Source: a virus
Length of the DNA: 64,000 nucleotides
Direction: 5' to 3' (one strand)
Virus record (IMG/VR): IMGVR_UViG_3300045971_000438
Span: 62,001-126,000 of that record
In this document: piece after piece, positions 1,509 through 30,930 of the stretch
Layout: each line of letters opens with the position of its first letter
Numbering within the stretch: the first letter of the stretch is position 1
Notes under the pieces: generated by a model
Databases searched by the model: none
Told to the model about the DNA's origin: nothing
Seen by the model: the letters and a program-made list of their open reading frames with translations, nothing else
Position numbers and translations under genes: made by a program

Positions 1509-1510
1509 AG

Positions 1511-1576: not shown

Positions 1577-1853
1577 AAATTGTGAGATAGATATATTAAA
1601 AAAAATCTTTCCTAATTGTAAACCACAAGGTAGCTCAAAAACAATAACTTGGACTCTGATAGAGGGTACAAGATTGGATGTTTGCTGCACTATTAAAAAT
1701 GCGGGTTGGATCGAAACAAATGAATTACGGCACAGTGAGGCTGCATTTGTCCATAAAAAGTACCCTAATTTAAGAATAGCTCTTGACTATTCTAGTCTGA
1801 AACCTGGATGGATGAATGTAATGGTAGTGACTCCTACGGAATCTAAAGTATGA
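1521..1853 (+). CDS. Unknown small protein
   Basis: 110 residues from ATG 1521. An in-frame ATG at 1560 (MKNASKNCEI) with GAGAG eight bases upstream may be the true start, giving 97 residues. The fold is not recognised. The sequence alternates charged and hydrophobic residues with two adjacent cysteines (DVCCTI). Its stop overlaps the next start in an ATGA arrangement, which indicates translational coupling. Confidence 0.6.
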   Translation: MSPKNFIASERFCMKNASKNCEIDILKKIFPNCKPQGSSKTITWTLIEGTRLDVCCTIKNAGWIETNELRHSEAAFVHKKYPNLRIALDYSSLKPGWMNVMVVTPTESKV

Positions 1854-2041
1854 CAGGTTACGAGTTACAGTCTGTTTTAAAAGCCTATGTCACCTTACTT
1901 GAAGGAGAAAATCCGTTTGAACTAAATCTCTTTAAGCCGAGCATCACTGTGAAGGAAGCAACAGAGATGATGGAGTTACTACCTAAAGTACGGGAATATT
2001 TAGCAAAAAATAAAGTTAGGAAGCCTATGACTTCATCTTGA
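1850..2041 (+). CDS. Unknown small helical protein
   Basis: 63 residues, starting inside the stop of the upstream gene (ATGA overlap). Two predicted helices (residues 4-22 and 33-55) surround a proline. The C-terminus is basic. No family was recognised. It is the last gene before the promoter at 2038-2066, whose -35 box overlaps its stop codon. Confidence 0.55.
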   Translation: MTGYELQSVLKAYVTLLEGENPFELNLFKPSITVKEATEMMELLPKVREYLAKNKVRKPMTSS

Positions 2042-2066
2042 CATTGTATAAAATAGCGTATATAAT
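2038..2066 (+). promoter_or_regulatory. Consensus sigma-70-like promoter
   Basis: TTGACA (2038-2043), 17 bp, TATAAT (2061-2066): a perfect consensus pair. It drives the structured leader at 2070-2173. Confidence 0.85.
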
Positions 2067-2069
2067 TAA

Positions 2070-2173
2070 GATGTTATTGGCGTACTATGAGTAAGATATT
2101 AAGCCAATAACATCTGTGTTATTACTGAAACCCAGCTCTAGTGTACTTACTCTACATTATCTGGGTTTCTTTT
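2070..2173 (+). ncRNA. Structured leader RNA, copy 1
   Basis: Seen: a 12-bp stem GATGTTATTGGC (2070-2081) with GCCAATAACATC (2103-2114); the box GTTATTACTGAA (2118-2129); then a long hairpin ACCCAG (2130-2135) with CTGGGT (2161-2166) and a T-rich run (TTTCTTTTATTT). The AATAAC in the right arm of the first stem can instead pair with GTTATT of the box, giving mutually exclusive folds. Copy 2 at 8981-9091 has the same order, box and terminator but different stem sequences. Inference: a terminated small RNA or an attenuator in front of the gene at 2190. Confidence 0.55.
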
Positions 2174-2189
2174 ATTTAGGTTTAAAAAG

Positions 2190-2930
2190 ATGAAAACTAT
2201 ATCAAGAGGAGATGTTTTTGAAACGAACATATCTGGTTTTTGTACTGTTGTAGAGTATATAGATTCACGAAATGTGAAAGTTAGATTTGAAGATGGATTT
2301 GAAACAATTTGTCAATCTGGTCAATTAAGAAATGGTCAGGTTAAGAATCCAAATAATCCAATTATTTATGGTGTTGGTTTTATAGGAGTTGGAAATTATT
2401 CTCATAAATCACATCCAAGAATTTATTACTGTTGGAGGGACATGATAGGAAGATGTTATCACAAAGTTACTCAATTAAAACATCGATCTTATATTGGTTG
2501 TACTGTATGTGAAAGATGGTGGAATTTTCAAAATTTTTGTTATGATTACTTGATAATGGTAGGTTCAGATTTAAATTATCATTTAGATAAAGATTTATTA
2601 TTTAAAGGAAATAAGATATATTCACCAGAAACATGTTGCTTAGTTCCACGTCAAGTAAATAACGTTTTAGAAAAATGTGATGCTAATAGAGGTGAATGTT
2701 GTATTGGAGTTAATTACTATGAAGATAAAATAAATCCATACAAAGCTACTTGTAACGTTGAAGGAAAACAAAAATATCTTGGTATTTACAAAACAGAACA
2801 AGAAGCACGACAAGTCTATAAAGTAGCTAAAGAAGCTGAATTTAAAAGACTGGCTAATTTATACAAAGATACATTAGATTCAAGAGCTTATATAGCTTTA
2901 ATGAATCGCACGGTTGATGAAGATGATTAG
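2190..2930 (+). CDS. HNH-like homing endonuclease with AP2-like C-terminus, paralogue 1
   Basis: 246 residues, co-linear with the proteins at 41650 and 53518. Residues 1-50 are a small beta domain (DVFETN…CTVVEYID…VRFEDG). The middle (about 75-150) holds RIYYCWRDMIGRCY, GCTVCERWWNFQNF and DLNYHLDKD, the conserved block of a phage endonuclease-like family. Residues 165-225 (IGVNYYED…KYLGIYKTEQEARQVY) resemble the AP2 DNA-binding domain of homing endonucleases. It would act as a free-standing intergenic mobile gene. It follows structured leader copy 1, which may restrain its expression. Catalytic assignment is by family resemblance only. Confidence 0.75.
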   Translation: MKTISRGDVFETNISGFCTVVEYIDSRNVKVRFEDGFETICQSGQLRNGQVKNPNNPIIYGVGFIGVGNYSHKSHPRIYYCWRDMIGRCYHKVTQLKHRSYIGCTVCERWWNFQNFCYDYLIMVGSDLNYHLDKDLLFKGNKIYSPETCCLVPRQVNNVLEKCDANRGECCIGVNYYEDKINPYKATCNVEGKQKYLGIYKTEQEARQVYKVAKEAEFKRLANLYKDTLDSRAYIALMNRTVDEDD

Positions 2931-2939
2931 GGGTGACTT

Positions 2940-3203
2940 ATGAATGATTCTTACAATGCAGATTCAATAAAGATATTAACACCAGAAGAAGTCTTAGATA
3001 AATTCAGATGGGTTGAGATAGAGTCCTTATCACATAAATACCATAAGCCTAAGAAATTTATAGAGAATGGCTTTGAGGCTTGTAGACGTGCTGGTGTAGA
3101 TAAAGAGTATTTCGTTCAGTATTATTTAGAAAAAAATCCAGATTATGTAAGAAATCCTTTAGTAGAAGATGCTTACAAAGATCTAATCAGAGAACAACTT
3201 TAA
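2940..3203 (+). CDS. Unknown small protein
   Basis: 87 residues, with ATG 9 bp after the endonuclease stop and GGGGTGA upstream as ribosome site. Charged and mostly helical (TPEEVLDKFRW, KYHKPKKFIENGFEACRRAG). The K-x-K-K-F-I helix pair could be a small DNA-binding fold, but I do not recognise a family. Confidence 0.6.
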   Translation: MNDSYNADSIKILTPEEVLDKFRWVEIESLSHKYHKPKKFIENGFEACRRAGVDKEYFVQYYLEKNPDYVRNPLVEDAYKDLIREQL

Positions 3204-3222
3204 TAAATTTAGGAGTATAAGA

Positions 3223-3414
3223 ATGAACAAAAAGATTGAAATTATTGAGAATGAAGGTTTAATAGAGCTTAGAGTACAGACAACCAAGATCGAACACACT
3301 TTTCTTATTCTAGAAAAGGAAGTCGCTAAAGAATTAGCTGATTCATTGATAGAACATTTTAAAAATCCAAAGATAGTGGAGTCATTTATAATAGATGACG
3401 ACGGGTTATGCTAA
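3223..3414 (+). CDS. Unknown small protein
   Basis: 63 residues; ribosome site AGGAG lies 9 bases before the ATG. It opens with alternating beta-type residues (KIEIIENEGLIELRVQTTKI) and continues as a helix (LEKEVAKELADSLIEHF). No family was recognised. It is the last gene before the promoter at 3431-3459. Confidence 0.6.
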   Translation: MNKKIEIIENEGLIELRVQTTKIEHTFLILEKEVAKELADSLIEHFKNPKIVESFIIDDDGLC

Positions 3415-3430
3415 AAATTGAACGGACTTA

Positions 3431-3459
3431 TTGTTTTTCATTTTCAGTTTGTATATAAT
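3431..3459 (+). promoter_or_regulatory. Sigma-70-like promoter
   Basis: TTGTTT (3431-3436), 17 bp, TATAAT (3454-3459). The GTATATAATG context recurs in the promoters at 5588 and 17920. Confidence 0.7.
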
Positions 3460-3497
3460 GATTACTCATTCAAAACAAATTAAAAATGGTGAAAAAA

Positions 3498-3785
3498 ATG
3501 AAAACCAAAATAGCCGCCGCTCTATTGATGGCAGCAATATCAGCGTCAGCGTCAGCCGAGTGGAGCACCGGAGGCCCGTTTCAACTTAACGAATATCCGA
3601 CTAAGGAAGAGGGACAAAGGCATACCTGTAGTAATTATGCTATTGCTATCAAGGACTTTGATACACGAACCAGAGCAGGAGATCACAGTCAAGACGAACT
3701 TCTTAAATTATATTTGGAAGCTTATTTTAAGGAGTGTAGATTACCAACTCACGCCCGTGACATAAATGAAGAGCACATGAAATAG
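3498..3785 (+). CDS. Exported small protein with signal peptide
   Basis: 95 residues from ATG 3498, preceded by GGTGA; an in-frame ATG at 3486 lacks a ribosome site. Residues 1-20 form a classic Sec signal: MKTK, a hydrophobic core, then SASA as the cleavage motif before EWST. The mature part has two cysteines (HTCSNY, FKECRL) that could form a disulfide. The first 100 bases (GCCGCCGCT…, GGAGGCCCG) are much richer in G+C than the neighbours, which suggests recent acquisition, perhaps from a host. Likely periplasmic; the function is unknown, with envelope modification or superinfection exclusion as guesses. Confidence 0.7.
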   Translation: MKTKIAAALLMAAISASASAEWSTGGPFQLNEYPTKEEGQRHTCSNYAIAIKDFDTRTRAGDHSQDELLKLYLEAYFKECRLPTHARDINEEHMK

Positions 3786-3795
3786 AGATGATTAA

Positions 3796-4062
3796 ATGAT
3801 AAAAATTCCTAAGATGGAAGATTATTGGATCTATTTTGAAAAAGCAGCAATAGATTCAGATGTTTCTAAAGAACTTAAACTGGATTTCAAAAAGGCATTT
3901 TTTGCGGGCATTCAGGCGTTAATGTGTGGTCAGATAATTGTCGTGCAGAATTTTCCTTCAGAAGAGGATTATTTTAAAGCTATGAATAATTGGAGAGAAG
4001 AGTGTGAAGAGTTTTTTAATTCATTTAGGGAATTCCCTGCTGATTTTAACCGTATGCATTGA
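3796..4062 (+). CDS. Small phage protein (W..F / AF.AG..ALM family), copy 1
   Basis: 88 residues. The motif FKKAFFAGIQALMCG after an initial YWIYFEKA segment matches a widespread small phage protein family of unknown function, and resembles the protein at 6376 (MKNAFYAGVKSLMML). The C-terminal half has a conserved W..E.EEFF segment in both. The role is unknown. It has no obvious Shine-Dalgarno beyond AGAGATG upstream. Confidence 0.65.
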   Translation: MIKIPKMEDYWIYFEKAAIDSDVSKELKLDFKKAFFAGIQALMCGQIIVVQNFPSEEDYFKAMNNWREECEEFFNSFREFPADFNRMH

Positions 4063-4073
4063 TTAGGTAATTT

Positions 4074-4391
4074 ATGACACGATCTAAAAACAATACTATT
4101 TCTCAATTTTTAGACAGATTAACTCTGGATTTATCAAAACCCTTAAAAGATTTACATTTTTATTATCTTCATGAAAGAGATGCAGGAACACATAGTAGAT
4201 ATTATGAACAAAAAATGGTTGAGATGTGTTTCTCTGTATTAGAAGATTTTACAATTTTAGGATTTAGAATAATCAGGCCAACATTTAGACCTTTTGGTTT
4301 TATCTTCACTATTGAATTTTCCAATTATGAGAATCAGATGTATCAAATTTATTTGACGTTAAAAGATTATGGTTGGAGAGAAATAAAGTGA
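4074..4391 (+). CDS. Unknown small protein
   Basis: 105 residues, ATG with GGTAA upstream. The N-terminal part is basic and helical, the C-terminal part is beta-rich (FGFIFTIEFSNYENQMYQIY). No family was recognised. Its stop overlaps the GTG start of the next gene, so the two are coupled. Confidence 0.6.
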   Translation: MTRSKNNTISQFLDRLTLDLSKPLKDLHFYYLHERDAGTHSRYYEQKMVEMCFSVLEDFTILGFRIIRPTFRPFGFIFTIEFSNYENQMYQIYLTLKDYGWREIK

Positions 4392-4618
4392 CTAAAATTA
4401 GTATTAATGGCTTGGATTTTGAAATTCCTCAAGGTTTCATTCATGTTAAGTGGCAAGATGTTGAACTTTCCCAGACTGTGTACATGATAGGTCAGCATAG
4501 AGGTAAACCTTTTGCTTATGGCCCTTATGTTGTTTTTGATAAAATTAATAGGTTATTAGTCAGTAACAATAATAGGCCTTTTCACGAATATGTAGAATCA
4601 CTTCTTATTAGGGGATAG
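4388..4618 (+). CDS. Unknown small protein (GTG start)
   Basis: 76 residues. GTG at 4388 is chosen because GGAGAG (4375-4380) sits seven bases upstream; a TTG at 4373 would lie on top of that site. The protein is beta-rich (TKISINGLDFEIP, FAYGPYVVFDK). Function not recognised. Confidence 0.6.
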   Translation: MTKISINGLDFEIPQGFIHVKWQDVELSQTVYMIGQHRGKPFAYGPYVVFDKINRLLVSNNNRPFHEYVESLLIRG

Positions 4619-4620
4619 AT

Positions 4621-4890
4621 TTGAAGACAGATAAATTTGCCAGAGGAGTATACGTTTTTGAATCTGTTTTAGAAGGTAAATCTTATCAAGATATAGGTAA
4701 TGAAATAGGACTGTCACTTAGCACTGTTAAGCAAATTTTAGTTGAAATAGAACAGGAAGTTTTAAAATTGATCCCTTATAGGGACAGACCTCATGACAAT
4801 TATGGAAAAACTTCTCCAGATAGATTAAGAGAATTTCGCCCACTTTGGATTAATTATTTAGAAATATTTAAAAATAAGAATAATATTTAA
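4621..4890 (+). CDS. Helix-turn-helix protein (LuxR/sigma-like HTH, TTG start)
   Basis: 89 residues with a TTG start preceded by GGGGA. Residues 15-42 (SVLEGKSYQDIGNEIGLSLS, then TVKQIL) form a typical helix-turn-helix of the sigma-region-4/LuxR type: a short helix, the IGNEIGLS turn and the recognition helix TVKQILVEIE. The C-terminal part is unassigned. Likely a DNA-binding transcription factor of the phage; the target is unknown. The promoter-proximal genes around it are all small unknowns. Confidence 0.65.
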   Translation: MKTDKFARGVYVFESVLEGKSYQDIGNEIGLSLSTVKQILVEIEQEVLKLIPYRDRPHDNYGKTSPDRLREFRPLWINYLEIFKNKNNI

Positions 4891-4891
4891 T

Positions 4892-5092
4892 ATGACTGAT
4901 TTTGAATCTAGGTGTTTCTCATGCCGTTTTATGCGAAGAATAACAAGTTCTTCGCATATAAGATGTGCAAATCCAGATCTTACTTTGACTGGTGACGAAG
5001 ATGCAATAGAGAAAGGTTATTTTCAATATCCATACAATTTCAATCCTATTTGGATTAAATCTATTTGTAAAAAATTTAAGGAGAAAATCTGA
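4892..5092 (+). CDS. Small cysteine-rich, probable zinc-binding protein
   Basis: 66 residues. Four cysteines in the pattern CFSC…RCANP…CKKF match a group of small phage proteins with a treble-clef-like arrangement; the protein at 26057 follows the same pattern. Zinc binding is inferred. The ATG starts 1 bp after the upstream stop. The next gene begins directly after its TGA. Confidence 0.6.
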   Translation: MTDFESRCFSCRFMRRITSSSHIRCANPDLTLTGDEDAIEKGYFQYPYNFNPIWIKSICKKFKEKI

Positions 5093-5548
5093 ATGTTAGA
5101 CACCCATTCGTTGGTGTTTTTACATCATAAGATATTTAAAGATACAATCGTTCGTTATCCATTTATAACAGATGCTAGATTATTGTTTCATGGCACTTTT
5201 TCAGAGGAAAGTATTCAGACTTTTATACGACCAGCTTGGGGTTTTTATGTGACTCCTTTGTATTCTTGGGCTAGAGAATATTATACGGGTTTAAATAGAG
5301 AATTTGGTGATGACTATGCGGGAAAAGGGTATGTGTATGCTCTATATGCAGATGTAAAAAATACATATCTTTGTTCAGATAAAGAGTCTGATATTTTTTA
5401 TGCTAGGGATTATGATGAAATGGAAAATTTTATTGCTAGATTAGATAAATATGGATTTGACAGCATTAAGTATAGAGGTGAATCTGAGTCTATGGTTTTG
5501 TTTAAAGATGTCTTGATTATTAACGCTCTGACTGGACGACCTATGTGA
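5093..5548 (+). CDS. ADP-ribosyltransferase-like protein
   Basis: 151 residues, ATG with AAGGAG upstream. The order of motifs fits an ADP-ribosyltransferase fold like the phage ART-PolyVal group: LLFHGT (H33), then GFYVTPLYSWAREYY (50-64) in the STS/Y position, then GYVYALYADVKNTYL, and GFDSIKYRGESESMVLFKDV (121-140) carrying candidate catalytic Glu130/Glu132. The length is close to a minimal ART domain. Known family role: transfer of ADP-ribose from NAD to host proteins or nucleic acids, as in T4 Alt/Mod. Here the target is unknown and the assignment rests on motif order only. It sits among early-type small genes. Confidence 0.6.
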   Translation: MLDTHSLVFLHHKIFKDTIVRYPFITDARLLFHGTFSEESIQTFIRPAWGFYVTPLYSWAREYYTGLNREFGDDYAGKGYVYALYADVKNTYLCSDKESDIFYARDYDEMENFIARLDKYGFDSIKYRGESESMVLFKDVLIINALTGRPM

Positions 5549-5564
5549 TTGATTTTAATGAGTC

Positions 5565-5593
5565 TTAACTTTAAAATACAGTTTGTATATAAT
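5565..5593 (+). promoter_or_regulatory. Sigma-70-like promoter
   Basis: TTAACT (5565-5570), 17 bp, TATAAT (5588-5593), in the same TTTGTATATAATG context as the promoter at 3454. Confidence 0.7.
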
Positions 5594-5644
5594 GTATTTT
5601 TTAATAAGTAGTTTTAAGTTGTTTAAGAAAATAGGAATAAAGAT

Positions 5645-5947
5645 ATGAAAGATTATTATCCACAAGTTGAACTTGAAATAGGTCTTTTAAAGTATGGAAT
5701 AAAAGTTCTTGATTTATGTGCTTATGTTGGATATAGTTTTGTTTTTGAAGGTGATGAAGATTCTTTTAAAGAATCTCTTAGTAATTTTATGCAGGAGTAT
5801 GGTTGGGAAGTTCAAGATGAGGATTGGTTTCCTGGTGATCCTGGTTATTTTGGTGAACCTGCATATTTTATTATGAAGAAATTGGATGGTCAATGTTTTG
5901 AGGTCTCTTTAGATTTTCAAAATAAAATATTAACTAATGTTATATAA
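5645..5947 (+). CDS. Unknown acidic protein
   Basis: 100 residues, acidic, with an aromatic- and glycine-rich centre (DWFPGDPGYFGEPAYF). The ribosome site is AGGAATAAAG before the ATG. The fold is not recognised. First gene after the promoter at 5565-5593. Confidence 0.6.
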   Translation: MKDYYPQVELEIGLLKYGIKVLDLCAYVGYSFVFEGDEDSFKESLSNFMQEYGWEVQDEDWFPGDPGYFGEPAYFIMKKLDGQCFEVSLDFQNKILTNVI

Positions 5948-5970
5948 TCAATAAGATAGGAATAAATAAA

Positions 5971-6360
5971 ATGGGAACAAGATCTTTAACGTACGTTTAT
6001 CAAGGTAATAAATGTTTAGTGTGCATGTATCGATAAATGGATGGATATTCATCAGGACATGGATTACAGTTGGCTAATTTTTTAACTCCAATCGAGCTGG
6101 TTAATGGTCTATCTTTAGATGATGAAGGTAAAAGAGTGGCAAATGGTATGCCTTGTTTAGCGGATCAGTTAGTGGCACATTTTAAAACAGGAGTCGGAGG
6201 CATTTATTTGGAAGCCATTGGTCTTGAAAAAGATTACGGGCAAGAGTATGAATACTATATCTTCGACAACACTGTACGAGTTTTTGAGATAGATCCTACA
6301 AGGAAAGTAATTTTTCAGGGAACATGGAAGGAGTTTTTAACTTTTTGTGAGACAGTCTGA
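5971..6360 (+). pseudogene. MGTRSLTYVY-family phage protein interrupted by an in-frame TAA
   Basis: The first segment reads MGTRSLTYVYQGNKCLVCMY, then R, then TAA (6034-6036), immediately followed in the same frame by ATG 6037 and MDGYSSGHGLQLANF…VANGMPCLADQLVAHFKTGV…GQEYEYYIF. In intact phage homologues MYR is normally followed by a glutamine and then (F/M)DGY, so CAA to TAA (one base) explains the break. The downstream 107-residue part may still be made from ATG 6037, since it directly abuts the stop and reinitiation is possible. The function of the family is unknown. A sequencing error or polymorphic nonsense mutation is the main alternative. Confidence 0.75.
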
Positions 6361-6375
6361 AGCTAAGGAATTACC

Positions 6376-6666
6376 ATGCTACCGTCTATAGAATCAGAAT
6401 GGCAGAGTTTTAAAGACCTTGTCATAGATCCTGAAGCCCCAGAATATCAGATCATTGACATGAAGAATGCTTTTTATGCGGGTGTCAAAAGTTTAATGAT
6501 GTTGGAGTCAGGTTTGGTTAAATCCAACTTATCTAAAGAAAAAAAGAGTAAGGTATTCGATTCATGGAATTTTGAGGTAGATCAATATTTTGTAGATCTT
6601 GTGAAATATTACCTGAAGGAACATCTTGAAGAGCAGCCTAAGGAACAAAGGTCTAAATTAAATTAG
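6376..6666 (+). CDS. Small phage protein (W..F / AF.AG..SLM family), copy 2
   Basis: 96 residues. EWQSFKDLVIDPEAPEYQ, then MKNAFYAGVKSLMMLESG is the recognisable core of a small phage protein family with unknown role; the protein at 3796 is a more divergent relative. The C-terminus is strongly charged (EEQPKEQRSKLN). The ribosome site GGAA lies before the ATG. It follows the broken gene by 15 bp. Confidence 0.7.
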   Translation: MLPSIESEWQSFKDLVIDPEAPEYQIIDMKNAFYAGVKSLMMLESGLVKSNLSKEKKSKVFDSWNFEVDQYFVDLVKYYLKEHLEEQPKEQRSKLN

Positions 6667-6673
6667 TTGAGTC

Positions 6674-6702
6674 TTGACTTGAAGTTTTAGTTTATGTATA
6701 AT
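6674..6702 (+). promoter_or_regulatory. Sigma-70-like promoter
   Basis: TTGACT (6674-6679), 17 bp, TATAAT (6697-6702), 30 bp upstream of the radC-like gene. Confidence 0.8.
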
Positions 6703-6733
6703 GTTACTTTAATAACAAAAATGCGAGCTAACT

Positions 6734-7210
6734 ATGAAGATTAAAGAAAAAATTGTAAATTATTCAATAACTTATGAAGATGAGATTATCAATCAGGCGC
6801 TAGCTATTTTGAAAAAGCGGATTAGGAAGCCAGGGGTCTTTTTTACCGAACCAGCCATAGTAACGGACTATTTAACTCTGACTTTAGCTGAACGAGATAT
6901 TGAGGTGTTTATGGTTCTGTTACTGGATAACAAGCACGGTCTTATTCATGAAGAGATTTTATTCAGAGGAACAATATGCGAATGTACAGTTTATCCGAGA
7001 GAAGTAGCCCGATTGGTTCTTAAGTACAATGCCTCTACTTTGATCTTAGTTCATAATCACCCCTCCGGCAGTATTGAACCATCACCAGATGATCTTCTCA
7101 TTACCAAGCGAATAAAGGAAGCACTAGAGTTAATAGATGTGCAGTTGCTGGATCATATACTGATAGCACAGACTACCACTATATCAATGAGGAGTGAAGG
7201 TCTATTTTAA
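6734..7210 (+). CDS. radC: RadC-like JAB-domain protein
   Basis: 158 residues, matching the C-terminal MPN/JAB half of RadC. Seen: Glu73 in HGLIHEEILFRGT, then LILVHNHPSGSIEPSPDD with the metal ligands H107, H109 and D119/D120, then DHILIAQ and a terminal MRSEGLF, as in bacterial RadC ends. The helix-hairpin-helix N-terminus of full RadC is missing, as is usual for phage and plasmid versions. RadC-type proteins are linked to DNA repair or anti-restriction loci, and their biochemical reaction is unsettled. Promoter at 6674-6702; next gene 18 bp downstream. Confidence 0.85.
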   Translation: MKIKEKIVNYSITYEDEIINQALAILKKRIRKPGVFFTEPAIVTDYLTLTLAERDIEVFMVLLLDNKHGLIHEEILFRGTICECTVYPREVARLVLKYNASTLILVHNHPSGSIEPSPDDLLITKRIKEALELIDVQLLDHILIAQTTTISMRSEGLF

Positions 7211-7228
7211 TATGATTAGGATAAGAAT

Positions 7229-7549
7229 ATGATATACAAAGAGAAGTGGCTGTATCCTAAAACTGGATTTATCAGTATTCCCAAATCATTATTATATAAT
7301 CAGGCTAAACTAGAGCTAACATCATCAGATCTTGTAGTTTTATTATACTTAATTAGATTTTGGTCAGGAGATTTTTCTCAATATCCATCACTGCATGTTT
7401 TATCAGAAGAGACAGGTTTGTCATTGGAAAAGATATTCAAAATACTTTTAAAATTAGAAAAACATCAGTTAATGGATGTTGAAGAACGAAATGGAAATAT
7501 TTATTATAATCTATCCCCACTAGCCAATAAATTGAAGGATTTACTATGA
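7229..7549 (+). CDS. Winged-helix DNA-binding protein, replication-initiator-like N-terminus
   Basis: 106 residues. The sequence GFISIPKSLLYN…LTSSDLVVLLYLIRFWSG… YPSLHVLSEETGLS, then a recognition helix LEKIFKILLKLEKHQLM, is the layout of helix-turn-helix domains in phage replication initiators and DnaD-like proteins. It ends after the domain (YNLSPLANKLKDLL), so no second domain is present. Likely DNA binding; a replication or regulatory role is inferred. Its stop overlaps the next ATG. Confidence 0.65.
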   Translation: MIYKEKWLYPKTGFISIPKSLLYNQAKLELTSSDLVVLLYLIRFWSGDFSQYPSLHVLSEETGLSLEKIFKILLKLEKHQLMDVEERNGNIYYNLSPLANKLKDLL

Positions 7550-7788
7550 AAGACCAGAAATGTCCCACATGCCAAGCACCTATGCAAGGATCTTTTGATG
7601 ACGAAGGCAATGAAATAAAACCCAATCCTTATGCTTTTGGAGTATGCTTCACTTGCGGAGCACAGTTTAGGTATGACGAGGATTTAGAGCCACAAGAAAT
7701 GACAGTAGAAGACATCTTATCCATGCCAGATGAACTCCGGATGTTATTATCTATGATAAGCAAAAAGGTATTAAAGGCTAAGAAATGA
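7546..7788 (+). CDS. Small zinc-ribbon protein
   Basis: 80 residues. Two CxxC knuckles (CPTC at residues 6-9, CFTC near residue 34) separated by a short loop indicate a zinc ribbon. The second half is acidic (EPQEMTVEDILSMPDELRML) and ends SKKVLKAKK. The last 24 bases are duplicated at 8011-8034, where they read KKVLKAKKA and then a stop; the present C-terminus may therefore have been rebuilt when the next gene was inserted. Confidence 0.65.
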   Translation: MKDQKCPTCQAPMQGSFDDEGNEIKPNPYAFGVCFTCGAQFRYDEDLEPQEMTVEDILSMPDELRMLLSMISKKVLKAKK

Positions 7789-8034
7789 AAGAGATAAATT
7801 TAAAGATATGGACTATTTTTTTCAGTCCATTAGATTTTCCCAACGAATACGTGGCTAGACAGTTTGATGTGGATCGACCCACTAATTTTCTTTTGAGAGG
7901 AGACAGTTTGGATGATTTACGAGTTAAGATTCAGAATAATTCGGAAAATCAATTAGTTAGGATAAACCGTTGCGAAGAAGACCATATTAGCGTTATTTAG
8001 AGTTGGATATAAAAAGGTATTAAAGGCTAAGAAA
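7762..8034 (+). repeat. 24-bp direct repeat flanking a small gene
   Basis: The 24 bases at 7762-7785 (end of the zinc-ribbon gene) recur exactly at 8011-8034, downstream of the 71-residue ORF. In the second copy the reading frame continues to KKVLKAKKA and TAA, which looks like the original 3' end. The unit between the copies is 225 bp and contains exactly one gene. Confidence 0.85.
7785..8000 (+). CDS. Unknown small protein inside a duplicated 3' end
   Basis: 71 residues (LKIWTIFFSPLDFPNEYVAR…). It starts in the ATGA overlap with the zinc-ribbon stop. No family was recognised. Because it is bounded by the two copies of a 24-bp repeat, it appears to have arrived as a unit that regenerated the upstream gene's end, or to result from a local tandem duplication. 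It is too small for an endonuclease. Confidence 0.5.
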   Translation: MKEINLKIWTIFFSPLDFPNEYVARQFDVDRPTNFLLRGDSLDDLRVKIQNNSENQLVRINRCEEDHISVI

Positions 8035-8059
8035 GCTTAATTGAGAGAGGTAAATTCAT

Positions 8060-8584
8060 ATGAACTATGGCGATCTAACAATAATAGCCGAGATCCCTAG
8101 AATAAACAACCAAAGGAGAGTTTTGGTAAAATGCGTATGCGGTAATAGAACAGAAGTCTACCTACACCATTTAAAATCAGGAAAGACGCGATCCTGTGGC
8201 AACCACAAATTACTACCTAATGGATCCTACCAAATTATAAATAAAAAGGAAAAAGAACCACATAGACAATCAAAATCAAGGACTTACGCTTCGTATGCAG
8301 CCATGAAAGATCGTTGTCTCAATCCAAATTCCGACTCTTTTCAAGACTACGCAGGCAGAGGCATCACTTTAGATCCAAGATGGATAGAGTCATTCAGTTC
8401 TTTTGTAGAAGATATGGGAATAAGACCAGAAAACACTACACTAGATAGAATAGACAATAATGAAGGCTATACAAAGTCTAATTGCCGTTGGGCTACCGAC
8501 ATAGAACAAAACAATAACAAGAGAACCCAAGGACTAACAAAACTTCACAGGATTTTCGGCCAAATTAGAGAGGAAAAGAAATGA
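8060..8584 (+). CDS. HNH-type homing endonuclease-like protein
   Basis: 174 residues. The N-terminal 50 residues contain a zinc-finger-like CVCG…SCGNH. From residue 75 the sequence follows a common phage/bacterial HNH family: TYASYAAMKDRCLNP, DYAGRGITLDPRW, FVEDMGIRPENTTLDRIDNN, and YTKSNCRWATDIEQNNNKR. The DRIDNN/NCRW pair forms the presumed beta-beta-alpha metal site. Free-standing mobile endonuclease. The stop overlaps the next ATG. Confidence 0.8.
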   Translation: MNYGDLTIIAEIPRINNQRRVLVKCVCGNRTEVYLHHLKSGKTRSCGNHKLLPNGSYQIINKKEKEPHRQSKSRTYASYAAMKDRCLNPNSDSFQDYAGRGITLDPRWIESFSSFVEDMGIRPENTTLDRIDNNEGYTKSNCRWATDIEQNNNKRTQGLTKLHRIFGQIREEKK

Positions 8585-8703
8585 CATACTACGATTATTT
8601 AAAAAGTATTATAAACCAATGGAATTTTTTAGATATTTTTCTAATTATTCTATTTTGTGGACTGACACTTGGATTATTAATCCACCACGATAACAAGGAC
8701 TAA
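8581..8703 (+). CDS. 40-residue membrane peptide
   Basis: Starts in an ATGA overlap with the HNH gene: MTYYDYLKSIINQWNFLDIF, then a hydrophobic segment (LIILFCGLTLGLLI) and a charged end HHDNKD. One transmembrane helix is predicted (residues 18-34). Coupled translation supports it being real. The function is unknown. Confidence 0.5.
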   Translation: MTYYDYLKSIINQWNFLDIFLIILFCGLTLGLLIHHDNKD

Positions 8704-8708
8704 GATTT

Positions 8709-8939
8709 ATGATATTCACTAACGAAAGAAAACTTCAGTACACAAGCTACTGGCTAGCCCAATCTCAGGCTGGTATCGCTGAAGAATTACTTGAAAAAGA
8801 ACTGGATTCAATTCACACTACGAATTTAGATGCAGTAGCCCAAGGTCTGTTAATCGGTTTAGCCTCATTTTTAAATTATGTAGAAGATCATGACTTGGAC
8901 AGCCACCACATATCAGAATTAAAGAAAATGAGAAAGTAA
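8709..8939 (+). CDS. Unknown helical small protein
   Basis: 76 residues, helical throughout (AQSQAGIAEELLEKELDSI, then AVAQGLLIGLASFLNYVEDH). It resembles the general pattern of small phage proteins of unknown role without a specific match. It ends a few bases before the consensus promoter at 8944-8972. Confidence 0.55.
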   Translation: MIFTNERKLQYTSYWLAQSQAGIAEELLEKELDSIHTTNLDAVAQGLLIGLASFLNYVEDHDLDSHHISELKKMRK

Positions 8940-25051: not shown

Positions 25052-25561
25052 ATGAGAGGACAAAAACCTACAGTAGAGATAATTTATTCTGATAACTACG
25101 ATTTTGAGAAATGGGGGCCACTAGTCCCAGCTACTGAAGGTGCGGCTGGTTTTGACGTTCGTGCCTGTGCATGTACAGACGTTATAGTTGCACCGGGATC
25201 TACAGTTAAAATAGATTTAGGAATAAAATTGCATATAAATGATCCACACCTGGCTGCAATGCTGATACCTAGATCTGGTCTAGGTGTTAAAGGTCTGGTA
25301 TTAGGAAATACTATTGGATTAATTGATTCTGATTATCAAGGCCCCGTGGTAGCGGCGGTTTTCAATCGTCTACAAAAAGAAGATCACATGTTTTATGACT
25401 CTTGGTATAAAAATGAAAATAATATAGTTATTCATCCTGGTGATAGAATAGCTCAATTAATATTCCTACCTGTAATCATACCTACATTATTTAAAGTGAA
25501 TCATTTTGAGGAAACAAGGCGTGGTGAGGGTGGGTTTGGTCATACTGGAGTAGGAGATTAG
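25052..25561 (+). CDS. dut: dUTPase
   Basis: 169 residues, trimeric dUTPase family. All five motifs are present: AAGFDVRA, PRSGLGVKGL, GLIDSDYQGPVVAAVFN, GDRIAQLIF, and RGEGGFGHTG. It hydrolyses dUTP to dUMP, keeping uracil out of the phage DNA. There is a 15-residue insertion (KEDHMFYDSWYKNENNIVI) before motif 4. ATG after GGAGTTTAAAA. Upstream is the Rad50-like gene, downstream an HNH gene. Confidence 0.95.
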   Translation: MRGQKPTVEIIYSDNYDFEKWGPLVPATEGAAGFDVRACACTDVIVAPGSTVKIDLGIKLHINDPHLAAMLIPRSGLGVKGLVLGNTIGLIDSDYQGPVVAAVFNRLQKEDHMFYDSWYKNENNIVIHPGDRIAQLIFLPVIIPTLFKVNHFEETRRGEGGFGHTGVGD

Positions 25562-25563
25562 TT

Positions 25564-26079
25564 ATGCAAGAATATCATTGTGAGGACTTTCTTTCACAAG
25601 AAAAATTAAAAGAATTATTAGAATATAATCCAGATACAGGAGTTTTTATTAGAAAAATTAGATCAGGTAAAAATGTTAAAATTGGAGATGTTGCTGGATG
25701 TCTTACGAATCATGGATATATAAGTATACGTTTATTTAATAGACCTTTTTATGTTCATAGATTAGTTTGGTTGTATATCCATGGAATATGGCCTGAACAT
25801 GATATAGACCATATAAATGGAATTAGAAAAGATAATAGATTAATTAATTTACGAGAAGCTGCTAGATTTCAAAATATGCAAAACGTATATAGAGCAAGAA
25901 GTAATAATATTTCAGGTTATTTGGGTGTATCTTATGATAGAGTAGGTAGAAATTATTATGCACAGATTACTTTAAATGGTGTTGTAAAACATCTAGGTCA
26001 TTTTAAAACAGCAGAAGAAGCAAGTGAACGTTATCTTAGTGAAAAGGTTAAATTACATGAATACTACAACAGGATATAG
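25564..26079 (+). CDS. HNH homing endonuclease with AP2 domain
   Basis: 171 residues, same architecture as 18794: LKELLEYNPDTGVFIRKIRS, GDVAGC, YVHRLVWLYIHGIWPEHDID, then HINGIRKDNRLINLREA with the HNH histidines and NMQNV, then SGYLGVSYDRVGRNYYAQIT, the AP2 segment. Initiates 3 bases after the dUTPase stop and overlaps the next gene's start (ATG 26057). Free-standing mobile gene. Confidence 0.9.
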   Translation: MQEYHCEDFLSQEKLKELLEYNPDTGVFIRKIRSGKNVKIGDVAGCLTNHGYISIRLFNRPFYVHRLVWLYIHGIWPEHDIDHINGIRKDNRLINLREAARFQNMQNVYRARSNNISGYLGVSYDRVGRNYYAQITLNGVVKHLGHFKTAEEASERYLSEKVKLHEYYNRI

Positions 26080-26254: not shown

Positions 26255-26905
26255 ATGTCTTACAAAATGTCAACAAGAGCACAAGTCATATTGAGAAGAA
26301 CTTATAACAGACCTTTAAATGATGAAGGAACTCTATTTGAAACATGGTCTCAAACTCTAGATCGGGTTATTAATCATCAGAAATGGCTTTGGGAAAGAAC
26401 TTTAGGTAAGGAATTAAATGAAAATCAGTTAGAAGAGCTTGCTGAATTACGACAGTTAATAGAAGAATGTAAGGTATTTCCAGCAGGACGTGTTTTATGG
26501 TTAGGAGGCACTGAAATAGGTCGAACTAGGGAATCAAGTTTATTAAATTGCGCCTTTATAAATGTAGAAACTATTTGTGATTTGGTAGATGTATTATGGA
26601 ATTTATTACAGGGTTGTTTTCATCCAGATACTAAGATTCAAACTAGTGAAGGTATTTTAACACTTAGAGAGTTTGAAAAAAGATTTAATACAGGTGAAGA
26701 AATTATAGTTAATTCGTTTAATGAGGAGTTACAAGAGTTTGAATATAAGCCTGTTTTAAAAACTAATTTTTCTTTAAAACAAGAAAAGTTAGAGTTAACA
26801 TTTGATGATGGTTCTGTTTTTAAGTGTACTGAAGATCATGAATTCTTAACAAAGAATAGAGGATATGTTAAAGCTGTTGATTTATTAGAAACAGATATAT
26901 TGTAA
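26255..26905 (+). CDS. nrdJ: Ribonucleotide reductase N-extein fused to split-intein N-half
   Basis: 216 residues. Residues 1-120 are the start of an adenosylcobalamin-dependent ribonucleoside-triphosphate reductase: VFPAGRVLWLGGTEIGRTRE then SSLLNCAFIN, with C99 in the place of the redox cysteine near the N-terminus of this family. At residue 121 the sequence turns into an intein start, CFHPDTKIQTSEGILTLREF, with Cys1, and block B TEDHEFLTKNRGY (T-x-x-H). The frame then ends at ETDIL. The matching C-half starts at 28090. It must be joined in trans by protein splicing. Next ORF is the endonuclease at 26958. Confidence 0.9.
   Translation: MSYKMSTRAQVILRRTYNRPLNDEGTLFETWSQTLDRVINHQKWLWERTLGKELNENQLEELAELRQLIEECKVFPAGRVLWLGGTEIGRTRESSLLNCAFINVETICDLVDVLWNLLQGCFHPDTKIQTSEGILTLREFEKRFNTGEEIIVNSFNEELQEFEYKPVLKTNFSLKQEKLELTFDDGSVFKCTEDHEFLTKNRGYVKAVDLLETDIL
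26615..26902 (+). other. Split-intein N-terminal fragment (96 residues)
   Basis: Codons 121-216 of the gene at 26255, starting with TGT (Cys1) after the extein …LLQG. Ends naturally at a stop after block B, as in known naturally split inteins. Confidence 0.9.
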
Positions 26906-26914
26906 ATTCTTTTG

Positions 26915-26957
26915 GTTCCTGTTACAATGTTATGGTTCATAATTTTGGAGCAGGAAC
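26915..26957 (+). promoter_or_regulatory. Hairpin masking the ribosome binding site of the endonuclease gene
   Basis: GTTCCTG (26915-26921) pairs with CAGGAAC (26951-26957), which abuts ATG 26958 and contains the AGGA ribosome site. The loop has a further 5-bp stem TTATG/CATAA (26930-26942). A layout known for phage T4 homing endonucleases, where early transcripts keep the ribosome site hidden. Confidence 0.7.
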
Positions 26958-28127
26958 ATGGGAATTAAAGGTGTTATTCAAAAATATAGAAAACAGTATT
27001 GGTTAATTAGGGGTTTTTCAGAAGAAGAATCTGCTAGTAAGGCTGATTTTTATTCTAAACTTAGAAATTCTTGGACTCTTGAATATTGGATAAGTAAAGG
27101 ATTTTCTAAAGAAGAATCTTTAGAAAAATTAGAAAAAAAACGTTTAGAAGTCAGTGAAAGAAGAAAAGCTAATCCAATAGAATTTAAAAGAGAAAATTGT
27201 AAGAGTTGTATAGAGTGGTGGTTAAAAAATTATTCTGAAGAAGAAGCAAATTTATTACATAAACAACATTTAAAGTCTATTCAGAAAGAATTACTAATAC
27301 CACCATCTCAAACTAGATATTGGGTTGCTAAAGGTTTTTCAGAAGAAGAATCTAAAGTGAAAGTATTAGAATTTAATACTAGAAATAAAGAGTTTTTTAT
27401 AAAAAGATATGGAAAAGAAGATGGTGAAAAACGACATAAGGAGCGAAGTGAAAAGTTTAGTGAAAATACAGTCTTTAAAAAAGAAACTGGAAGGGTAGAA
27501 GAGATTCAAAATTTAGCAAGATTAAATAATCCATTACAAAGAGACTATTGGGTTGCTAAAGGATTTTCTGAAAAAGAAGCAAAAGAAAAATCTAATGAAG
27601 TTAGAAGATATACTTCTCCAAAATTTAAAGAATATTGGATTGAGAAAGGATTTTCAGAAGTAGAAGCTGAAGAAAAGAAAAATACATATAATTCTTATAT
27701 GTGTAACGAAGCATTAAAGAGTATGTATACTAGGGAATTTAAAAATAATTCTAAAGGTGAGAAAGAGTTATATAAGATAGTAAAATTTTATAGTTGGACT
27801 GCTTTAAGAAATCAAAGTTTTAATATTGGAGATAGATGGTGTTTTCCAGATATAGTTATTGATGATAAATTGGTAATAGAGTATCAGGGTGACTATTACC
27901 ATGCTAATCCTGCTTTTTACGAACCTTCAAGAAAAATGTTGGGTAGTACTGCTAGTGAAATACATAAGGTTGATGAAAGAAGGAAAAAATTATTAGAATC
28001 TTTAGGATTTGCTGTAGAAATTGTTTGGGAATATGACTGGGTTTCTTGTAAAGATAAACATGAATTGGTTAAAAATTTATTAAGGAAATATGATGCAATT
28101 AGTGGGCAAAAGATTATTAAAAGATGA
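26958..28127 (+). CDS. Free-standing Vsr-like (EDxHD-type) homing endonuclease
   Basis: 389 residues. Residues 12-255 carry six repeats of the type YWxxKGFSEEEA (YWLIRGFSEEES, YWISKGFSKEES, YWVAKGFSEEES, YWVAKGFSEKEA, YWIEKGFSEVEA, and one WWLKNYSEEEA), probably DNA-binding. The end is a restriction-fold nuclease: FPDIVIDDKLVIEYQGDYYH, then a helix with KVDERRKKLLESLG and FAVEIVWEYDW. This family is known from fractured genes, where it lies between the halves of a split-intein-bearing gene, exactly as here. The ATG is in a hairpin (26915-26957); its end overlaps the ORF at 28090. Confidence 0.85.
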   Translation: MGIKGVIQKYRKQYWLIRGFSEEESASKADFYSKLRNSWTLEYWISKGFSKEESLEKLEKKRLEVSERRKANPIEFKRENCKSCIEWWLKNYSEEEANLLHKQHLKSIQKELLIPPSQTRYWVAKGFSEEESKVKVLEFNTRNKEFFIKRYGKEDGEKRHKERSEKFSENTVFKKETGRVEEIQNLARLNNPLQRDYWVAKGFSEKEAKEKSNEVRRYTSPKFKEYWIEKGFSEVEAEEKKNTYNSYMCNEALKSMYTREFKNNSKGEKELYKIVKFYSWTALRNQSFNIGDRWCFPDIVIDDKLVIEYQGDYYHANPAFYEPSRKMLGSTASEIHKVDERRKKLLESLGFAVEIVWEYDWVSCKDKHELVKNLLRKYDAISGQKIIKR

Positions 28128-28200
28128 AGAAAGTTATATAGACATAGCTGTTAAGGACAACCATAACTTTGTTTTAGAGAATGGAATAGTTGTACATAAT
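28090..28200 (+). other. Split-intein C-terminal fragment (about 37 residues)
   Basis: From ATG 28090 to AAT 28198-28200. It contains an IDIAVKDNHNFVLENGIVVH block F/G region and ends His-Asn, followed by Cys (TGT 28201). Confidence 0.9.
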
Positions 28201-30930
28201 TGTGGGGTTGGATTTTCTCCCATCATTGGCACATTAACAGGATTTCGTAAGAAAATATCAGAAATAGAAGTTATTCGTTCTAAATCTACTAAAAAAACAG
28301 GGATTGATAATAATGAAGAAATTTGGGATCCATTAACTAAAGTTTGGACTATAAAGATAGGTGATAGTGCTGAAGCTTGGGCTAAAGCTTTAGGCAAGTT
28401 AGTGGCTGGAAAGTATCCAGCATCTAGATTAGTTCTAGATTTTTCAAATATAAGACCATCAGGTGAAAGACTTAAAGGGTATGGATGGCTTAGTTCAGGT
28501 GACGAACAAATTTCTGTTGGTTTTAAGAAAATATCAGAAATACTCAATAGTAGAGCTGGACAATTACTCACTAAGATAAATATTTTAGATGTTGTTAATT
28601 GGTTAGGAACTATTCTTTCGTCACGTAGGTCAGCACAAATCTGTTTGTTTGAATATGGTTCTCCTGAGTGGGAAGAATTTGTGGTTGCTAAAAAGAATTA
28701 TTGGGAAACAGGAAATCCACAAAGAGCCCAAAGTAATAACAGTCTAGCGTTCAAATCTAAACCTTCAAAAAAGGAATTAGAAACTATTTTTGAATTAATG
28801 GCAGATGCAGGTGGATCGGAACCTGGATTTATGAATATGGAAGCTGCTTTAAAAAGAGCCCCGTGGTTTTCAGGATTTAACCCATCTTTAAGAAAAGGTA
28901 CTAGAGTTTATACAAATAAAGGTATTATTCCTATTGAGACTTTAGAGAATGATCTTTTTGAAGTGTTTACTATAGATGGACAATATAAAGAGGCGCGTTG
29001 TAAATTATCTGGTAAAAATCAACAACTTTACAGAATAATTTTACAAGGAGGCCATGAATATTATGCTACTAAAGAGCATAATTGGCCTATAAATAGAAAA
29101 AATAAACATAATTATGATCTTAGAAAAGATTTAATTAAGGTTACAACTGAAGAACTTAAATCAGGGGATTTACTTGTAAACACTATGAGAGATTCGTTGT
29201 ATCCAAATGCTGTTAAAGGTTCTTATGATGATGGATTTTTTATTGGATGGCTTTTGAGTGATGGTTGGATAACAAAAAGATCTCAAGGTTCAACTTGTTT
29301 AGAAATTGGATTAATAGTAAATCAAGAAGATTATGAAAGTTCTATAAGAATTAAATTAGAGGATTATTTAGAATCTTTTGGTAGTGAATGTAAATTTAAA
29401 AATCCTAATAAACAAAGTTCTTGGGAATTACAAACGTCTATAAAATCTTTAAGTGATTGGTTATTAGAGTGTGGTGTTACAAATAATGAAAGATTACCTT
29501 CAAGTTTGTTTTCATCAGAATATTCAGAGGATTATAGAAAAGGTTTTATTGATGGAACTTTTTCTTCTGATGGTGGCTTAGATTTTGGTGGTTTAAGAGG
29601 TAGGGAAAGTAATTCAGTTAGGATTATTCTTAATTCTAGTAAGATTGAAAGAATTAAAGATATGTCTGAATTATTAGGTTTTTATGGAATAAGAACATCT
29701 GTGAGATTTGTACAAACTACAGGCATTTTTCCTAATGGTAAAGATTATAAAAAATTGTATGATTGTTATTATTTGGGTATTTCAGCTCCTGATTCTTTAA
29801 GGCATTTTTCTAATTTATTTCCACTTACACACGTTAGAAAACAATTTAGGATAGAGAGTGCTGATTTAAGTAAGAGAGGAAAACTTCCTGGTTTTATTAA
29901 GATAGAATCTATTGAAAAAACAGATTTATTTGAAGATGTTTGGGATATTGGAGTTTATGATGAAAGTCACACATTCCAATTAGCTCATGGATTTACTGGT
30001 AATTGTGGTGAGGTACTCTTAGCTAATAAAGGTTTTTGTAATCTTACAGAAGTAGATGTAAGTAAGTTTAAAAATAACCAAACAGCTTTATTTAGAGCGG
30101 TTTATATTGCTGCTAGAATGAATTATAGACAGACTTGTATAAATCTTAATGATGGTATTTTACAAGAAGCTTGGAATCTTAATAATGATTTTTTAAGATT
30201 GTGTGGTGTGGGATTAACAGGAATAGCTAAACGTCCTGATTTACAATGCTACGATTATACGGATCTTAAAAGAACTGCTACGTATGGTGCCTATGGTATG
30301 GCTGATGAATTAGATATGCCTAGACCAAAGAACGTTACTGTTGTAAAACCTTCTGGCAGCACGTCAAAAGTCATGGATACTACTGAAGGCATACATAAAC
30401 CATTAGGTAAATATATCTTTAATAACGTCCAATTTAGTAAGCATGATCCATTGGTAAAACTGTTGCAAGATGCGGGTTACAATGTTTTTAATCATCCTAT
30501 TGATGAAACAGGGGTTTTAGTTACATTTCCAGTGAAATGGGAAGGCGTTAAATTCAGTATTGTCGATGGTAAAGAAGTTAATCTTGACAGTGCTGTTATG
30601 CAGTTAGACAAGTATAAAATGTTGCAAGATCATTGGTGTCAACAAAATACATCTTGTACCATATCTTATGACCCCACAGAAGTTCCCGATATTATAGACT
30701 GGATGCTTTACAATTGGGATTCTTATGTTGGAGTTTCGTTTTTGTATAGAAATGATCCTACTAAGAATGCAAAAGATTTAGGTTACTTGTATTTACCACA
30801 AGAAGTTGTCACTAAAGAAGAATACGAAGACTATGTGGCTAATTTAAGTGAAATTGACATTGAAATGGGTAATTCTCTCTATGAATTACAGAACGAAGGG
30901 TGTTCTTCAGGGGCTTGTCCTATTAAGTAG
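28090..30930 (+). CDS. nrdJ: Split-intein C-half, reductase C-extein and internal cis-intein
   Basis: 946 residues. Residues 1-37 are the C-intein, ending NFVLENGIVVHN, before Cys+1. Residues 38-265 (CGVGFSPIIG… APWFSGFNP) and 639-946 (CGEVLLANKGFCNLTEV… GCSSGACPIK) are reductase. They are interrupted by a second intein at 266-638. In class II monomeric reductases the NPCGE cysteine carries the thiyl radical and the cysteine 11 residues later is its redox partner; both match here (C639 and C650). The C-terminal CSSGAC is the regenerating pair. Excision of both inteins would leave a protein of about 656 residues. ATG 28090/28093 follows AAGGAAAT. Confidence 0.92.
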   Translation: MMQLVGKRLLKDEESYIDIAVKDNHNFVLENGIVVHNCGVGFSPIIGTLTGFRKKISEIEVIRSKSTKKTGIDNNEEIWDPLTKVWTIKIGDSAEAWAKALGKLVAGKYPASRLVLDFSNIRPSGERLKGYGWLSSGDEQISVGFKKISEILNSRAGQLLTKINILDVVNWLGTILSSRRSAQICLFEYGSPEWEEFVVAKKNYWETGNPQRAQSNNSLAFKSKPSKKELETIFELMADAGGSEPGFMNMEAALKRAPWFSGFNPSLRKGTRVYTNKGIIPIETLENDLFEVFTIDGQYKEARCKLSGKNQQLYRIILQGGHEYYATKEHNWPINRKNKHNYDLRKDLIKVTTEELKSGDLLVNTMRDSLYPNAVKGSYDDGFFIGWLLSDGWITKRSQGSTCLEIGLIVNQEDYESSIRIKLEDYLESFGSECKFKNPNKQSSWELQTSIKSLSDWLLECGVTNNERLPSSLFSSEYSEDYRKGFIDGTFSSDGGLDFGGLRGRESNSVRIILNSSKIERIKDMSELLGFYGIRTSVRFVQTTGIFPNGKDYKKLYDCYYLGISAPDSLRHFSNLFPLTHVRKQFRIESADLSKRGKLPGFIKIESIEKTDLFEDVWDIGVYDESHTFQLAHGFTGNCGEVLLANKGFCNLTEVDVSKFKNNQTALFRAVYIAARMNYRQTCINLNDGILQEAWNLNNDFLRLCGVGLTGIAKRPDLQCYDYTDLKRTATYGAYGMADELDMPRPKNVTVVKPSGSTSKVMDTTEGIHKPLGKYIFNNVQFSKHDPLVKLLQDAGYNVFNHPIDETGVLVTFPVKWEGVKFSIVDGKEVNLDSAVMQLDKYKMLQDHWCQQNTSCTISYDPTEVPDIIDWMLYNWDSYVGVSFLYRNDPTKNAKDLGYLYLPQEVVTKEEYEDYVANLSEIDIEMGNSLYELQNEGCSSGACPIK
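28885..30003 (+). other. Cis-splicing LAGLIDADG intein in the reductase (373 residues)
   Basis: Begins with Ser1 (TCT 28885; SLRKGTRVYTNKGIIPIETL), block B YYATKEHNW, LAGLIDADG motifs FFIGWLLSDGW and YRKGFIDGTFSSDG, and ends HTFQLAHGFTGN before Cys+1 (TGT 30004). The penultimate residue is Gly rather than the usual His. It splits the reductase active-site motif between NP and CGE. Confidence 0.9.

Follow-up and report, generated by a model that had tools for sequence, protein, structure and literature searches.

How can a phage obtain a working ribonucleotide reductase from a gene that is divided over two open reading frames (ORFs) with an endonuclease gene between them? The question is raised by a locus in the IMG/VR virus record IMGVR_UViG_3300045971_000438, a tailed phage record of 156,133 bp, of which we analysed positions 62,001 to 126,000, a stretch of 64,000 nucleotides referred to here as the window. 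The gene in question, nrdJ of the RTPR family, encodes a class II ribonucleotide reductase and is with high probability a fractured gene, namely one whose two halves are joined in trans by a split intein, with a second, continuous intein spliced in cis and a putative homing endonuclease encoded between the halves.

Anatomy of the divided reductase gene

The N-terminal reductase ORF (N-ORF), the endonuclease ORF and the C-terminal reductase ORF (C-ORF) each lie in their own reading frame (Table 1), and since these three frames differ no read-through can join them; from the end of the N-ORF to the start of the C-ORF the gap is 1.18 kb. The N-ORF ends in an intein N-half (IN) and the C-ORF begins with an intein C-half (IC), which starts inside the endonuclease gene, giving an overlap of 38 bases. 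The sequence AAGGA lies 5' of the ATG of the C-ORF, and GGAG seven bases 5' of that of the endonuclease. A second record of the same virus, IMGVR_UViG_3300045970_000382 (L102), shows no mismatches in two overlapping pieces of 13,167 and 14,838 bases; as it is identical around the locus an assembly error is unlikely, although this record may not be independent. The ORFs, the position of Cys1, the 37-residue IC and the VVHN before Cys were all recomputed exactly as an earlier, sequence-only reading of the window had given them.

That reading had also called the enzyme a B12-dependent reductase, which is borne out both by the RTPR model TIGR02505 and by alignment to the Lactobacillus leichmannii enzyme (1l1l). 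The C-ORF matches the model with 462.7 bits (expectation value, E, 2e-138), above the cut-off of 340.05, and the N-ORF with 109.1 bits, which is under the whole-protein cut-off, as expected of a fragment. Removal of both inteins leaves a protein of 656 residues that aligns over its full length to the NrdJ of four relatives, namely L003 (from IMG/VR), MW202615 (L004), PQ867841 (L005) and Sinorhizobium phage phiM19 (L006). The joined extein restores the sequence QG-CGVGF exactly (hyphens mark splice junctions), which is unbroken in all four of these relatives, and NP-C, at the site of the continuous intein, is unbroken in three of the four.

The presumed catalytic cysteines are shared out between the two polypeptides. 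The cysteine aligned to Cys119 of the L. leichmannii enzyme (codon 26549) is in the N-ORF, and those aligned to Cys408 (30004) and Cys419 (30037) are both in the C-ORF, the continuous intein directly preceding the Cys408 equivalent, which is the first residue after it. We take Cys408 to be the radical cysteine of this enzyme and Cys119 and Cys419 its redox pair; if these roles are right, then with their equivalents so divided no activity is expected from either polypeptide by itself or before splicing.

Table 1. Features of the nrdJ locus, its upstream neighbour and the helicase locus that lies outside the window
Feature	Coordinates	Strand	Length	Evidence
N-ORF (N-extein + IN)	26255-26905	+	216 aa	
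Endonuclease ORF	26958-28127	+	389 aa	
C-ORF (IC + extein + continuous intein + extein)	28090-30930	+	946 aa	
N-extein of NrdJ	26255-26614	+	120 aa	TIGR02505 E 1.8e-31, residues 7-121; 1l1l alignment
IN, Cys1 at 26615, block-B T-E-D-H at 26828	26615-26902	+	96 aa	TIGR01445 34.6 bits
Stop codon TAA of N-ORF	26903-26905	+		
Predicted RNA hairpin at endonuclease start	26905-26966	+		fold
Free-standing endonuclease, C-terminal Vsr/EDxHD-fold domain	26958-28127	+		alignments, Vsr profile match, fold match
IC, ending VVHN	28090-28200	+	37 aa	TIGR01443 27.6 bits
Middle extein of NrdJ, first residues CGVGF, Cys+1 at 28201	28201-28884	+		join compared with L003, L004, L005, L006
Continuous intein, Ser1, end TGN-C	28885-30003	+	373 aa	homologous intein at same place in MW202615
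C-terminal extein of NrdJ, C-terminal CSSGACPIK	30004-30930	+		TIGR02505, 1l1l alignment
HNH endonuclease gene (HNH_3, phrog_99), upstream	25564-26079	+		PF13392 E 1.9e-13; phrog_99 E 3.5e-62
Hel308-like helicase locus, outside window	G000:C1 41504-36346 (L111 2347-7505)	minus		one continuous and one split intein
Helicase continuous intein	G000:C1 40550-39228	minus	441 aa	
Helicase intein N-half, Ser1	38663-38358	minus		TIGR01445 19.8 bits, below cut-off
Helicase-locus nuclease gene	38323-37406	minus	305 aa	DUF559, NUMOD3 above cut-off; MTES_1575 E 3e-8, below cut-off
Helicase intein C-half, THN-CNTCATN, on third ORF	37479-37375	minus		TIGR01443 above cut-off

Inteins and the probable joining of the reductase

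Both models of intein ends exceed their cut-offs at the locus, TIGR01445 in the N-ORF (34.6 bits, cut-off 24.5) and TIGR01443 in the C-ORF (27.6 bits, cut-off 15.6), and over the whole record they reach E 1.3e-9 and 9.9e-9 here. The two halves retain Cys1, the T-x-x-H block, the F block and the terminal His-Asn before Cys, and when fused and compared with the PDB they match the NrdJ-1 intein best (8ubs, E 6.6e-10), with DnaE inteins next. The NrdJ-1 split intein is nonetheless distant from the window halves in sequence and presumably occupies another splice site, NPC.

Together with the exact join against uninterrupted relatives and the divergent copy at the same site described below, the intein models uphold the sequence-only reading in two of its claims, that the intein is split and that joining takes place at the protein level with no DNA-level exon joining. 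Judged from the sequence, protein trans-splicing of the nrdJ halves is very likely. Two polypeptides would be made, one of N-extein and IN and the other of IC, extein, continuous intein and extein; IN and IC would associate and fold as a single intein, whose Cys1 and terminal Asn, together with Cys+1, would carry out the trans-splicing that links LLQG to CGVGF. Excision of the continuous intein in cis would expose the cysteine aligned to the catalytic one, with a class II reductase of 656 residues as the result. The earlier description of three polypeptide segments joined by two splicing reactions holds for the three extein segments and for the reactions, one in trans and one in cis, but the polypeptides are only two.

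The continuous intein probably holds a homing endonuclease domain of LAGLIDADG type, to judge from matches to LAGLIDADG_3 (16.3 bits, cut-off 22.5) and LAGLIDADG_2 (14, cut-off 25) that are below cut-off, as is its match to PF14890. A homologous continuous intein occupies the same place in MW202615, with 58.9% identity to the C-ORF across residues 33-946 (97% of its length); there the first site, LLQG-CGVGF, is empty.

The DNA pattern for HN-CGVGF occurs once in the window and in none of 100 shuffles. Its ten viral loci include two reductases, namely L102 and IMGVR_UViG_3300030688_000075 (L099, 35 kb); six of the ten are in other genes, comprising five CHNCGVGF zinc-ribbon-like ORFs and L096, in which a continuous intein ends at an HN-CGVGF-type site, and in L100 and L101 the match falls in ORFs of 20 and 27 residues. 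Among 66 matches in bacterial and archaeal genomes, none is a reductase, by eye from the flanking residues. A separate nrdJ scan with alignment A1 (best 80 matches), for which QGCGVGF was one of two patterns, is biased away from split copies, and no counts were drawn from it.

L099 carries a divergent copy of the arrangement at the same site: an intein N-half at LLQG-C, a Vsr-type nuclease of 266 residues whose gene overlaps both neighbouring ORFs, and a 38-residue C-half ending VVHN-CGVGF. The fused inteins of window and L099 are identical at 40 of 127 aligned residues (about 31%; score 138, z 13.3 against 200 shuffles). The reductase C-ORF of L099, at 596 residues, has no room for a continuous intein; as L099 has the split intein and nuclease only and MW202615 the continuous intein only, the two elements are separable, and the window has both.

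These comparisons bear on what else the divided gene might mean. The best surviving alternative, itself very unlikely, is a reductase of two chains that assemble without a covalent link, the intein halves being relics; the NrdA of phage Aeh1, split by mobE, is reported to function in this way without a self-splicing element (PMC2988022 and PMC3653736). Yet both window halves keep every splicing feature listed above, L099 keeps the same features at its much diverged identity, which would be unlikely for relics, and IN and IC would be left on as tails where the enzyme is conserved. A little less probable still is that the gene is broken and yields nothing functional, being a pseudogene or an artefact of assembly: the reductase ORFs are indeed separated and out of frame, but all ORFs are open, the second record is identical, the predicted spliced protein can be aligned to intact phage NrdJ over its whole length, C-terminal cysteine pair included, and the same genome holds a second gene of like design. 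Least probable is removal of the insert from the RNA by an intron with no need for protein splicing, since, although group I introns occur in phage reductases (PMC3653736) and one lies elsewhere in this genome, the window has no Rfam match at the gathering threshold and the ends of the coding parts are intein halves whose splice junctions are exact; to leave a clean product, an intron would need the same boundaries as the intein.

The endonuclease between the halves

The EDxHD motif of nucleases is named after its E, D, H and D residues, which in the window endonuclease are E308, D312, H315 and D339 (codons 27879, 27891, 27900 and 27972). As a single sequence the protein matches DUF559 and MTES_1575 below cut-off and phrog_22677 with E 1e-9, and phmmer against the PDB gives no meaningful match. 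With tblastn against 50,697 phage records the whole protein has no match at 1e-5, and its C-terminal 140 residues match 44 records at E <=1, the best at 9e-7.

The C-terminal domain was aligned with domains from fractured and other phage loci, picked by motif pattern, seed profile and tblastn. In the resulting 11 rows, numbered on a 138-residue piece, D47, I56, E57, G60, H64, D88, G99 and W106 are invariant, and D61 is nearly so, being Ser in L099. A profile that includes rows labelled Vsr or mismatch endonuclease in databases (A5) matches the Vsr chains 1vsr, 1odg and 1cw0 with E about 3e-6; a profile with no Vsr-labelled rows (A4), its rows nevertheless picked by Vsr-like motif pattern and profile, matches them with E 4.3e-4 to 4.5e-4, an AI-designed TIM barrel (7mcd) ranking first at 3.8e-4. 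Both match the homing endonuclease I-Bth0305I weakly (0.011 for A5 and 0.036 for A4). A predicted model of the domain (predicted local distance difference test, pLDDT, 85.3) has Vsr 1cw0 as its top Foldseek match (E 4.9e-4), and VIA-align Z scores are 11.1 for 1cw0, 10.8 for 3hrl, 10.0 for I-Bth0305I (3r3p) and 9.5 for 1vsr. The predicted fold of the catalytic domain is that of I-Bth0305I and E. coli Vsr, from which the window protein differs in its flanking domains and in its low identity (16% to 3r3p and 21% to 1cw0). The profile and fold matches agree with the earlier proposal of a free-standing Vsr-like endonuclease, and nuclease activity is likely.

The N-terminal part of the protein (26958-27680) holds repeats of the type YWVAKGFSEEES, i.e. 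YW-x-x-K-G-F-S-x-E-E-x, four found by pattern and a fifth by eye. By pattern, two such repeats occur in each of the L099 and PA5oct nucleases and none in the seven other nucleases checked; by analogy only, they could form an unnamed DNA-binding module.

The start of the endonuclease gene is predicted to fold. A stretch of 91 nucleotides has a minimum free energy of -25.5 kcal/mol (z -5.43, none of 200 shuffles as low), and in the hairpin the Shine-Dalgarno-like GGAG is partly paired and the ATG lies within. Among 62 ORF starts compared it has the most extreme z (-5.14); its raw energy is unexceptional, 112 of 8522 window stretches being as low. No comparable hairpin was found at the nuclease starts of L099 (z -0.87) or of the helicase locus (z +1.11). 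Sigma-70-like sites between 26000 and 28300 number 11, against 10.9 in shuffles, one of them (26900-26928, plus strand) overlapping the 5' side of the hairpin, and a sigma-70-like scan, which does not cover phage-type late promoters, recognised no late promoter there. In T4 I-TevI and Aeh1 mobE, translation is reported to be held back by hairpins at the ribosome site (PMC2988022). The window locus resembles these in that its predicted hairpin also covers the ribosome site of a putative homing endonuclease gene in a phage, and differs in that no late promoter was recognised and that one of three loci tested has the hairpin; by analogy, a delay of endonuclease translation by the hairpin is a tentative lead.

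The endonuclease would most likely cut intein-free nrdJ alleles at or near LLQG-CGVGF, after which the whole block of IN, nuclease gene and IC would spread by repair in mixed infections; homing of the block is plausible. Several points weigh against this account of the locus. The block has been found at this nrdJ site in two phages only, so that homing is inferred, and the fused intein has distant relatives only (34 of the 50,697 phage records at E <=1e-3, each below 60% identity). The fused inteins of nrdJ and of the same phage's helicase are identical at 41 of 116 residues (score 88, z 8.2); set beside the 40 of 127 shared with L099, this makes the L099 intein no closer by identity, and only its score is higher. 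In the continuous intein Gly, not His, precedes the last Asn, an ending shared by its relative in MW202615. The L099 nuclease has Ser at the position of D312, one of the four named residues therefore not being kept, and chains of the mitochondrial ribosome and human FASTKD4 (9i05, 9gek) reach Z 10.4-10.5, level with the homing endonuclease, which indicates that the fold is shared more widely. An AlphaFold model of the whole endonuclease, built on a two-row alignment, was discarded (pLDDT 49.9), and the DNA-binding part is thus only putative.

Upstream of nrdJ, the HNH_3 gene is likely to be another mobile gene outside the split-intein block; a dUTPase gene (25052-25561) adjoins it.

Fractured genes elsewhere and in the same genome

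In 2009 Dassa et al. (NAR 37:2560) reportedly described fractured genes in which a split intein occurs together with an EDxHD/Vsr endonuclease; the work is cited in PMC3653736, PMC7090010 and PMC12350094. The sequence-only reading had identified the order of N-half, Vsr-type nuclease and C-half with this known type, and rightly: gene order, a free-standing Vsr-type nuclease, a phage metabolic or replication gene and a reductase target are common to both. The window differs in its site, LLQG-CGVGF, in the continuous intein within the same gene and in the presence of a second fractured gene in the genome. The order recurs in the annotated phage PTm1, in its polymerase, and in polB of Aeromonas phage Aes123 (JN377899), where an N-intein, a putative VSR endonuclease and a C-intein follow one another; in Aes123 the ORF overlap and nuclease domain are also as in the window, but the host gene is another and by pattern the nuclease has no YW..KGF repeats.

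The earlier claim of novelty, that a second, cis-splicing intein coexists in the same reductase, is right as to the intein and needs qualifying as to precedent. In 2003 Liu and Yang reportedly described multiple inteins in the split dnaE of Trichodesmium erythraeum, a gene that to our knowledge lies in a cyanobacterial chromosome with no endonuclease between the halves; going by the title, split and continuous inteins would be combined there as they are in nrdJ of the window. The claim is also weakened by the viral contig L186 (IMGVR_UViG_3300008255_001543, 4446-8933), in which one reductase is spread over four ORFs with three split inteins. Its junctions, read by eye, are RR-C..HN-S, NP-C..HN-C and SGSA-C..HN-S, and at its middle split intein lies an ORF resembling a nuclease, in which the motif is EIKG and not EDxHD. 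The window locus is a new example of a known arrangement, at a site not met in the literature passages covered; what it has in addition is a continuous intein in that gene, a twin of the whole arrangement in a helicase gene and a predicted hairpin at the nuclease start.

The twin arrangement lies outside the window in a Hel308-like helicase gene, whose parts match PRK02362 with E 4.6e-27 and 2.6e-22, far under the whole-protein cut-off, and join to 848 residues. With the TIGR intein models over the whole record at E <=1, only the nrdJ and helicase loci were matched; as these models do not detect every intein end, further inteins may be missed. The passages covered of the literature on split and multiple inteins in phages name no phage with two fractured genes. 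Elsewhere in the genome a group I intron (Rfam RF00028, 80.1 bits) lies at G000:C1 139596-139878 (L116 14596-14878, plus strand), followed by an HNH-like ORF recognised by eye (L116 15074-15805), and an Rfam tRNA match at L114 11452-11575 (minus strand) spans 124 bases, longer than usual and perhaps interrupted.

A scan with the helicase C-ORF gave 29 viral loci, one being this virus. At 22 of the other 28 the intein C-half is near an ORF start, as judged by script for 21 and by eye for L202, and two of the 22 reach a contig end; at 6 it is inside a long ORF; a simple pattern finds an upstream ORF with the nuclease motif at 9 of the 22. Several loci are near-copies (e.g. L198-L200 and L203-L206), so there are fewer separate cases than loci. 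By sequence reading the interrupted genes include reductases, dUTPase-like ORFs and clamp-loader-like ORFs. In L203-L207 and L198-L200, dUTPase-like ORFs (CGYRGE or CDYRGE after HN) begin with an IC directly 3' of an EDxHD-type nuclease gene, and in L209 and L212 clamp-loader-like genes are split by inteins (N-half after LDE, C-half before CDYLTPNA, by eye). In LR756504 (L092), a 636-kb uncultured phage, the locus at 1067-5367 has an NrdA-like reductase with an intein N-half, next a nuclease with an EDxHD-type motif and then the rest of the reductase; the intein C-half was not located in this locus.

We hold only tentatively, as something short of probable, that at least four intein reactions proceed in a single phage, two of them in trans and two in cis, shared between two DNA-replication genes that each combine a LAGLIDADG-type continuous intein and a split intein with its own Vsr-type nuclease, and that the nrdJ nuclease is held back by the hairpin until late infection. 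If this were true, reductase assembly and homing would be timed apart, and the split inteins, sharing one cell, would need to be orthogonal. What the locus adds is a reductase insertion site, LLQG-CGVGF, at which two divergent split inteins occur in nature and which is free of inteins in relatives; through this comparison the idea that a split intein with its nuclease invades a phage metabolic gene can be put to the test. The two split inteins in one genome offer a natural test of orthogonality, and their halves are candidate tools for protein ligation.

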